Made by a program: the position numbers and the translations under genes
Part shown: one piece after another, positions 2,699-5,237 of the stretch
Layout: each line of letters starts with the position of its first letter
How positions within the stretch are numbered: the stretch's first letter is position 1
DNA from: a bacterium
GTDB lineage: Bacteria; JAJVIF01; JAGGVT01
Assembly: GCA_021157815.1 (NCBI GenBank)
Contig: JAGGVT010000164.1
Coordinates: forward strand, 1-7,311
Reading direction: 5' to 3'
DNA: 7,311 nt
Notes under the pieces: generated by a model
What the model was told of the DNA's origin: nothing
What the model saw: the letters and a program-made list of their open reading frames with translations, nothing else
The model's database searches: none

Positions 2699-3745
2699 TC
2701 AAAAAAACTTGTTAATCTTTGGATTTCGCCTGAGGACATCAACCACAGTAAGGCCATCGCAGAAATTAACTGTGTGGACTCCGCAGATATTAGGCATCCA
2801 GGTTGGTAGAATCCTCGCGACTTTTTCCTCTAAATACTCATCAACACTTAATTTTACCATCTTGTTGAATGTAATCCCATAGCCGTAACGGGCTGAGCAG
2901 TCCTGGCCGGGGCGATAGATATCGTTGTTCCATTGGATTATTTTACCCGCGGGACGTGTTGATCTGATATCAACCTTGACAGGATTTTGTTTGTGAGGTT
3001 TCCATTCGCCGAAAAGGTCATCGGTGTAAAATATGGACAGCTTGTTATTCAGCGATGTTCCGCCATCCACGGTGTTAAGAAACATCCACAGAAGGTTGTC
3101 CTTTTCGAGGATTGTGGCATCAACGGCTGAAACATCCTTCATGATATATTTCTCGAATTTCCATTCGTATGGGAACGATACACACCTGTATAGCTCAACA
3201 GTTCTGTTGCTGCTTGTTTCCGGTATCATGAAAAGCGAATCATCCCACTCAAACATGAACGGATATGACAGATGATAATCGGTTTCAAGAATGCATTTGG
3301 GTTTCGACCAGCCGCCATCATCGTTTTGGGAGATTACCGAAATAACTCCCTTGCTGTTGTGGTAGAAATACTCCTCAAGAAAAACGTGGAATTTGCCATC
3401 AACCCTCACGGGAAAAGGGTCAGCCCACTGGCGATCTGCTGTTGGTTTCAGATATTTAAACGTGCGAAGATCATACTGCCCATTCTCCGCCTCGCCAAAT
3501 CTGTATCCGAGGAACCACTGCATATCCATTAGTTTTCGTGAGAAGAATCTAAGGACAGTTCTGTAGCCGGGACATGCCAAATTGGATGACGGCGTTGGAG
3601 TGTCATCTACAGGAGTCATGTTCTGGAAAAGGTCAAACCTAGCGTCTGCCATTATGAATAAACCTGTCGTCCCGATTCTTGTTTCGCTAGTATCATTAGA
3701 TGTAATCACTCGGCGAAATAATACGTTTGCGTTTGTATCATGCAT
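2699..3745 (-). CDS. GINT1 N-terminal-like beta-propeller protein (glucosamine inositolphosphorylceramide transferase family)
   Basis: A 348-residue protein (numbered from Met at 3745) whose core from about residue 75 carries the hallmark motifs of the bacterial homologues of the plant GINT1 N-terminal domain. In order they are QWF (76-78), ADPF (108-111), FLEEYF (122-127), HLSYPF (158-163), MIPE (173-176), DATI (209-212), RPAG (264-267) and YRPGQDCS (277-284) followed by a YG. The repeated Asp/Trp blades resemble a glycosidase-like five-bladed propeller. The plant protein also has a GT64 catalytic domain, which is absent here, so glycosyltransferase activity should not be assumed. Bacterial members commonly occur in polysaccharide or glycolipid loci; no signal peptide is obvious. 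The reading frame stays open to an ATG at 3811, but the first residues would then be encoded inside the 101-bp palindrome. I prefer ATG at 3745, just downstream of a TGCTATAAT box, or ATG at 3652 (weak ACAGG 10 bases before). The first ~70 residues have no recognisable homology. Confidence 0.8.
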   Translation of the reverse strand: MHDTNANVLFRRVITSNDTSETRIGTTGLFIMADARFDLFQNMTPVDDTPTPSSNLACPGYRTVLRFFSRKLMDMQWFLGYRFGEAENGQYDLRTFKYLKPTADRQWADPFPVRVDGKFHVFLEEYFYHNSKGVISVISQNDDGGWSKPKCILETDYHLSYPFMFEWDDSLFMIPETSSNRTVELYRCVSFPYEWKFEKYIMKDVSAVDATILEKDNLLWMFLNTVDGGTSLNNKLSIFYTDDLFGEWKPHKQNPVKVDIRSTRPAGKIIQWNNDIYRPGQDCSARYGYGITFNKMVKLSVDEYLEEKVARILPTWMPNICGVHTVNFCDGLTVVDVLRRNPKINKFF

Positions 3746-3749
3746 AAAG

Positions 3750-3758
3750 ATTATAGCA
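3750..3758 (-). promoter_or_regulatory. Extended -10 promoter for the minus-strand pair
   Basis: On the minus strand this reads TGCTATAAT, a perfect extended -10. No good -35 is present 16-18 bases upstream (AGTAAA/GTAAAT-like), which extended -10 promoters can tolerate. Transcription would start close to 3743-3745. This gives either a nearly leaderless mRNA from ATG 3745 or a ~90-base leader before ATG 3652. It argues against translation from ATG 3811. Confidence 0.5.
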
Positions 3759-3781
3759 TGTGAGAAGAGGGATTTACTAAA

Positions 3782-3882
3782 CCTGGGAGCGCTGGAATCT
3801 TGCCGGCGCATGGAGCGCTAAAGCGCTCCTGTATAAAGGCGAGGACGCCTTTTCGCGCCGGCAAGATTCCAGCGCTCCCAGG
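3782..3882. repeat. 101-bp palindromic element able to form a cloverleaf/cruciform
   Basis: A perfect 28-bp inverted repeat (3782-3809 against 3855-3882, starting CCTGGGAGCGCTGG) encloses 45 bases that hold two more perfect hairpins. One is GGAGCGCT/AGCGCTCC (3812-3819/3822-3829). The other is AAAGGCG/CGCCTTT (3835-3841/3846-3852) with an AGGA loop. The whole folds as a three-way-junction cloverleaf. It is far more GC-rich than the flanking intergenic DNA. From memory, repeats with a GAGCGC-GGNATCTTGCC-GGC core are dispersed in several environmental bacterial genomes and give spurious 'RRQD(A/S)xAP' peptides; the overlapping minus-strand frame indeed begins MRRQDSSAP. Both predicted promoters point away from it, so neither gene's transcript would include it. 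It is thus more likely a DNA-level repeat than a terminator or leader RNA for these genes. Confidence 0.85.
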
Positions 3883-3898
3883 GAAGTAATTTAAAACT

Positions 3899-3928
3899 TT
3901 GCGATTATTAATCTTAAGTTGCTATAAT
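3899..3928 (+). promoter_or_regulatory. Promoter for the CsgG-like/glycosyltransferase pair
   Basis: TTGCGA (3899-3904, 4 of 6 to the -35 consensus), an 18-base spacer, and an extended -10 TGCTATAAT (3920-3928). The start of transcription would be near 3935, giving a leader of about 30 bases that contains GGAG at 3958-3961. The -10 box is identical to the one driving the divergent unit. Confidence 0.6.
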
Positions 3929-3965: not shown

Positions 3966-5237
3966 ATGACAATGAAAAGAGCAATTACAATTCCAATATT
4001 TTTTATGATTCTGCTATCCGTTTTGCCTGTGTATTCGATAACCTACGAACGCATCGACGCGCCGGAATTTGATTTAACGCATCTTGACCGCATCGCAATC
4101 CTGCCGTTCGAGCCGGGCTATGAGACTGCATACGAGGGCGAGGCGATTGCCGACAGGCTCGCGACTCATCTTGCGCAGGAAGGTTTTCTGAATTTAATCG
4201 AGCGGATGCAGATTGAGAAAGTCATGGAGGAGGGGGCATTTTCGCGCGAGGCTTTCGCTGACTCGGCATCCGCTTCCGGTTTCGGGAAACTTCTTGGCGC
4301 GGATGCGGTAATCATTGGGCGAATCGAAACACGGTATTCCGAAAAGAAGGATACAACCTGGGTCTGGCAGGATAAGAAAGTGCTGGTGTGGGTTGAGGGC
4401 AGGCAGGTTGAAAAAACGGTTCGCGAACAGGTGAAAGTGCCTGTTTTGGTCAAAAGCGGCGAGGTGAATATCGACACGAAAGTAGTCGAGGTTGAAACCG
4501 GCAGGATACTGGCATCCAAGGTCGCATATCATAACTGGGAAAAACGCGGTGTTGAGGACAAGGAAATCAACGCGCTGCCATCGCAACATGATGTAATTGA
4601 GGACTGTGTCGCGAAATGCATGGATATTCTGATTCGGGCATACACTCCGCACAAGGTTGTGATTGAGCGGGAGCTTAGGCCTAAAAGCCACGCGACAACA
4701 GAAGAGATGCAGGCAAAAAAACTGGCTGAGAGCGGATTTTACGCCGAGGCGATTAAAATATTCGAGGACGTTCTTGCCGACAAACCGAAGAAAAATGATA
4801 TCCGTGGCAATTTAGCATGTATAAATGAAGCGATGGGTAATTTCGAAAAAGCGAATTACTGGCTTAATGAGGCCGCGCGTAATGGAAAAACCGTACATGA
4901 CATAGACGACTATCGAAACAGCATGCTTCAGGCGTGGTATTTTATCGAATCGAAAAAACTCGCGGATAAACCGATTATCGTACTGGATATTGTTGGCGAT
5001 AAAGTGTATCTCGATGCCGGCCTGAAAAGAGCAATAAAAGTCGGAACCCGCCTGCAGATATGCAGGGAAACGAAAATAATGCACCCGGTAACCGGTGAGG
5101 AAATGGGCAGCGACAAACGTCCGGTCGCGTTGATTGAAATAACCGAGGTTCAGGAAAAAATGGCTGTGGCTAAAGTCATTGAACTGTATGATGACGAACT
5201 CAAAATCATGAAACTCGATGTCGCGATTTTGCAATGA
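3966..5237 (+). CDS. CsgG-like periplasmic protein with TPR and FlgT-C-like domains
   Basis: A 423-residue exported protein. Residues 1-24 form a Sec signal peptide (KR, a hydrophobic core, then LPVYS before ITYER). There is no lipobox Cys, so it is not an obvious lipoprotein, unlike classical CsgG. Residues ~40-230 resemble the CsgG/LpoB-type fold: RIAILPFEP at 42-50, a helix ending in LATHLAQEG, FLNLIER-MQIEKVMEE at 74-89, GADAVIIGRI at 111-120, and a long beta-hairpin-like insert rich in Trp/Val/Lys. A TPR-like pair of helices occupies ~245-305 (ESGFYAEAIKIFEDVL, then MGNFEKANYWLNEA). The C-terminus (~335-421) resembles the FlgT C-terminal domain (GDKVYLDAGLKRAIKVGTRL, then HPVTGEEMG). Likely role: an envelope assembly or scaffold factor; no curlin genes are present, so it should not be called a curli gene. 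ATG 3966 has GGAG only 4 bases away; ATG 3972 (10 bases) is an equally good start. It is followed after 32 bases by the glycosyltransferase gene. Confidence 0.75.
   Translation: MTMKRAITIPIFFMILLSVLPVYSITYERIDAPEFDLTHLDRIAILPFEPGYETAYEGEAIADRLATHLAQEGFLNLIERMQIEKVMEEGAFSREAFADSASASGFGKLLGADAVIIGRIETRYSEKKDTTWVWQDKKVLVWVEGRQVEKTVREQVKVPVLVKSGEVNIDTKVVEVETGRILASKVAYHNWEKRGVEDKEINALPSQHDVIEDCVAKCMDILIRAYTPHKVVIERELRPKSHATTEEMQAKKLAESGFYAEAIKIFEDVLADKPKKNDIRGNLACINEAMGNFEKANYWLNEAARNGKTVHDIDDYRNSMLQAWYFIESKKLADKPIIVLDIVGDKVYLDAGLKRAIKVGTRLQICRETKIMHPVTGEEMGSDKRPVALIEITEVQEKMAVAKVIELYDDELKIMKLDVAILQ

Follow-up and report, generated by a model that had tools for sequence, protein, structure and literature searches.

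We found that a 101-bp palindrome separating two divergent bacterial genes belongs to a repeat family, family A, that is dispersed, multicopy and extragenic in its genome. It is probably a REPIN-like (BIME/TIR-dimer), non-autonomous miniature element, most likely mobilised in trans by a RAYT (TnpA_REP)-type Y1/HUH transposase. The element occupies positions 3782-3882 of the window, the 7,311-nt stretch of DNA that was analysed. A mobile palindromic repeat was among the readings offered by an earlier note on this DNA, and the many dispersed copies, variable inner hairpins and covarying stems described below support that reading.

Anatomy and setting of the palindrome

The element as a whole, taken without strand, is an inverted REP-like dimer with a structured spacer, folding as a cloverleaf. 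The left arm (3782-3809, plus strand) consists of the foot CCTGGGA and a hairpin, GCGCTGG/CCGGCGC, in which 3789-3795 pairs with 3803-3809. The right arm (3855-3882, minus strand) is its exact reverse complement with the foot outermost, so that the two arms, 28 nt each and separated by 45 nt, are 100% complementary. Between them lie two unstranded inner hairpins. Hairpin 1 (3812-3829) reads GGAGCGCT-AA-AGCGCTCC and has 8 complementary pairs, 7 of which form with a 4-nt loop, and hairpin 2 (3835-3852) reads AAAGGCG-AGGA-CGCCTTT, its 7-pair stem being conserved among copies. Arm comparison and folding agree with the 28-bp perfect outer stem and two perfect inner hairpins described in the earlier note.

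The arm plan of family A, CCTGGGA and then a short hairpin GCGCYGG...CCGGCGC, is the foot-plus-hairpin plan of a REP, with the consensus form GGGAGCGCYGG-N-TCT-NN-CCGGCRC. With its feet outside, its short spacer and its single-strand hairpin, the window element has the form of an inverted REP pair. The calculated DNA fold energy of positions 3772-3892 was -58.6 kcal/mol, compared with -20.2 +/- 2.9 for 200 dinucleotide shuffles (z = -13.3), none of which matched the real sequence. The cloverleaf-like single-strand fold might also suggest a site of site-specific recombination, such as an integron attC-like one, or the gene of a structured non-coding RNA. Both are very improbable here: copies stand singly, dispersed between ordinary genes and with no cassette arrays, and the window holds neither an Rfam family nor a tRNA.

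The palindrome separates a minus-strand GINT1_N-like ORF (2699-3811) from a plus-strand ORF for a CsgG-like/FlgT_C/TPR-like protein (3966-5237). The mechanically called GINT1_N ORF runs through the left arm, and its true start probably lies further in, for example at codons at about 3745 or 3652. Outside the element, a promoter-like site of the downstream gene (TTGCGA-18-TATAAT; 3899-3928, plus strand) begins 17 nt past the palindrome, and a local influence of the palindrome on expression of that gene is possible. The divergent promoter region had been put forward as a meaningful setting, with a topological insulator or a replication-pausing site as candidate roles. We judged the context of 16 copies with a crude ORF caller: 15 were intergenic, with seven in tandem, five in convergent (six including one copy overlapping a small ORF) and two in divergent gaps, and one undetermined. 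Because only 2 of the 16 copies lie between divergent genes, the setting in the window is incidental, and the preponderance of tandem and convergent gaps leaves both the insulator and the pausing roles unsupported. A dedicated function for the host is improbable at this locus, and such palindromes should not be annotated as promoter or insulator elements.

Copies, covariation and distribution

The source genome (3.2 Mb, 221 contigs, 91% complete) contains eight full-length copies of family A, including that of the window, together with about ten fragments. Seven full copies share the same plan (C50, C18, C27, C105, C144, C148 and C164), and a covariance model added a divergent full-length copy on C56. 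In a DNA search of the genome, the best full-length match was 92% identical to the window copy and the other full copies were 84-86% identical. The palindrome is therefore far from unique in its genome, and the idea of a young element, drawn from its perfect arms, sits poorly with such divergence within the family. The arms of full copies differ at 0-5 of 28 positions. On average, arms differed at 2.0 of 28 positions within copies and at 2.9 between copies, a comparison made without a formal test; the arms may be corrected by template switching.

The same copies bear on the concern that the palindrome is an assembly artefact, that is, a chimeric fold-back. Misassembly can in general yield perfect long palindromes, and no result of the analysis indicates it here. 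In contrast, the same plan recurs in independent copies of divergent sequence, located within many other contigs and with unrelated flanks, which makes the chance of an artefact practically negligible.

Truncated or deleted forms of family A occur on C187, C29, C142, C139, C144 and C170, and a short form is the hairpin on C177 (CTGGGAGCGCTGGATTTCATCCGGCGCTCCCAG). The copy on C29 has no right arm, its inner GCGCTCC joining the outer CCCAGG directly, as a deletion between short repeats would leave it. Three copies of family A adjoin a tandem repeat of type TAACTTACTAACCTGC (L006 on the right flank, L002 and L025 on the left). Other repeats, namely CCCTAAATCCGCGATTGAAC..., apparently with a TTTATC duplication, and GGGGCTGTTGAAAAAG..., interrupt or truncate repeat copies at L192 (about 1413-1799), L007 and L197.

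The stems have changed in a paired manner. Pairing is kept in 95.5% of pair cells over the seven full copies. The stem of hairpin 1 varies as GGAGCGC, TTGGCGC and AGGCGC, with A-U replaced by G-C at one pair and G-C by U-A or A-U at the next. In the outer stem, A-U has become C-G and U-A has become G-C. The covariation score was 0.133, compared with 0.068 +/- 0.013 for shuffled data, and none of 500 shuffles reached the real score, although the count reflects few independent events because the copies are related. The earlier note had proposed to look for exactly such compensatory changes.

A search of the genome with the arm pattern, allowing up to 3 mismatches, returned 117 matches versus 1 with a reversed-pattern control. 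The majority of these matches lie in elements about 173 bp long that carry the arm CCTGGGAGCGCTGGTCTCTGACCGGCAC as inverted pairs, here called family B. Family B has about 45 copies, with 29-bp arms that are almost invariant and a strongly diverged interior. Mean pairwise identity over 25 copies was 95% in the arms, 68% in the interior and about 40% in the outer flanks; an arm-based search favours good arms, but most of the matches listed carry the consensus rather than forming a tail at the mismatch limit. With its conserved arms and variable interior, family B matches the description of REPINs (PMC3116915). Its outer flanks (L185-L224, on many contigs) can be sorted into a few shared types, of which some are inverted relative to each other (TAGTCGTCCCTGAAAAAC...GTTTTTCAGGGACGACTA), a pattern that hints at a larger composite element.

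With one mismatch allowed in the arm, family A was present in 0 of 384 other genomes, apart from a single arm match with one mismatch in G043. The covariance model, run on 144 genomes, found copies in their own genome alone and none in the 143 relatives. The nearest kin among the genomes searched belong to the same class, and none to the same genus or family. Within the range of these searches, family A appears to be lineage-specific: the palindrome is indeed absent from the relatives searched, but it has siblings in its own genome. Pattern hits in 84,980 species genomes and in viral contigs were scattered singles, mostly resembling GC-rich coding sequence, and included no cloverleaf copy. Two Verrucomicrobia arm-pattern hits, L085 (Verrucomicrobiales) and L099 (Verrucomicrobiia), lie in palindromic settings like REP pairs (CTGGGAGCGCCGGA...CCGGC) and may be distant REPs.

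These data also weigh on the explanation that the repeats are host-maintained functional sites, such as nucleoid-protein or gyrase binding sites, replication pauses, insulators or RNA hairpins, whose copies are kept for their function. Such a role would fit the far better conservation of family B arms than of the interior, the covarying stems and the intergenic position of nearly all copies. However, a transposase substrate equally predicts conserved ends, the repeat is confined to 1 of 385 genomes, its gene context is inconsistent, and many copies are truncated or broken by other inserts. We consider host maintenance improbable.

RAYT genes and a proposed route of mobilisation

No target-site duplication was present at any of the seven full family A copies. 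Among the available loci (joined flanks of eleven copies, with nearest kin of the same class), no empty site was found. We also considered whether the flanks represent pre-existing palindromic targets; over seven copies this was not significant (P = 0.20), with only the C164 copy clearly showing palindromic flanks.

Short dispersed elements with inverted ends can also be MITEs of DDE-type insertion sequences, whose ends are cut as double-stranded DNA and which insert with a short target duplication. The size of about 100 bp, the dispersal and the perfect inverted ends of the palindrome would suit such an origin. It is disfavoured by the absence of a target duplication at all seven full copies; in addition, such an element would need neither the conserved pair of inner hairpins nor the hairpins within the arms, and no transposase with family A ends was seen, in a direct search that covered Y1_Tnp genes only. 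There is thus a small chance at best that the palindrome is a DDE-type MITE.

Nine RAYT (Y1/HUH) genes in the source genome scored above the Pfam Y1_Tnp cut-off, and several of them have short inverted palindromes of their own on either side. The RAYT unit on C84 (L074, G000:C84, about 923-1589) is 667 bp long with perfect 49-bp inverted ends, and encodes a protein of 182 aa with HVH and Y-I-H-N-N-P motifs visible in the translation. The left 56 bp of this unit match, at 100% identity, the left half (positions 1-56) of a separate cloverleaf repeat of 104 bp, which numbers at least 40 copies that are 91-100% identical (40 of 104 candidates scored, so that the family may be larger). Since the end of the C84 unit is half of this repeat, this genome has a cloverleaf family and a RAYT unit with a common end, and a RAYT flanked by its own repeat. 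The pairing of a RAYT unit with a high-copy cloverleaf repeat of identical ends, in a poorly sampled bacterial class, offers a compact case for testing RAYT recognition of branched substrates.

A Y1/HUH gene cognate to family A would carry the end sequence CCTGGGAGCGC. Neither among the nine RAYTs of the genome nor in three same-class genomes did any RAYT have GGGAGCGC ends on both sides, although some RAYTs of those three genomes also bear long inverted ends. With the source genome incomplete and fragmented into contigs as it is, the missing cognate gene is weak evidence. Upstream of the RAYT on C65, at a distance of about 60 bp, lies an A-type hairpin that has no counterpart on the other side. 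This RAYT was set aside as a candidate for the cognate enzyme, its own perfect ends being AAAGGGGACGGACACTTTTT.

We propose the following route for the REPIN-like element. The element would fold as single-stranded DNA, which the lagging-strand template, for instance, would expose. A RAYT-type Y1/HUH transposase acting in trans would recognise, cut and re-insert it, and the element would thereby spread through intergenic gaps. That a RAYT moved family A by a single-strand route is inferred from the known biochemistry of RAYTs, which act on REP/BIME substrates (PMC8266576). A bolder extension, which we regard as unlikely, is that a RAYT-related system takes multi-branched (cloverleaf) structures rather than simple REP hairpins as its usual substrates. 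Several unrelated families of one genome, at least the 101-bp and 104-bp ones, would then have arrived at branched palindromes by convergence or by being shaped into them, and the transposase would use the branches for recognition.

Comparison with known repeat systems

A limited literature search found no earlier description of family A. REPINs are REP doublets that form hairpins in Pseudomonas fluorescens and others, with conserved ends and a variable spacer of constrained length (PMC3116915). Family A likewise has two inverted REP-like units, conserved ends, a variable spacer and a single-hairpin fold, is dispersed between genes and shares its genome with RAYT genes. Unlike REPINs, it has two extra perfect hairpins in its spacer and a foot other than GTAG, its copy number is low, and no RAYT with family A ends was found.

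Published accounts cover REP head-head dimers whose spacers are structured, as well as RAYT genes that lie between inverted repeats forming families (PMC3733652). The GTAG- or CGTC-tagged head-head dimers also have their feet outside and a spacer of 20-100 bp, and the CGTC-3 dimers of Agrobacterium tumefaciens have two stem-loops in the spacer (PMC3733652). In contrast, family A carries neither tetranucleotide tag and its cloverleaf is tight; its foot is CCTGGGAG in almost every copy, that is, GGGA(G), and for this reason we filed it as REPIN-like rather than as a GTAG/CGTC REP. The RAYT-flanking TIR families ("TIRtrons"; PMC3733652) are comparable in that long inverted repeats flank RAYTs and form families.

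The closest parallel within the same genome, the 104-bp family, is also dispersed, about 100 bp long and built on a cloverleaf plan. Its sequence is unrelated to that of family A, and it differs in having a 13-bp outer stem, several inner helices and a direct link to a RAYT. Set beside these systems, the 101-base palindrome is most likely a good example of an already known class rather than a genetic switch of a new type, and a conspicuous feature of the window is accounted for as mobile-repeat DNA.
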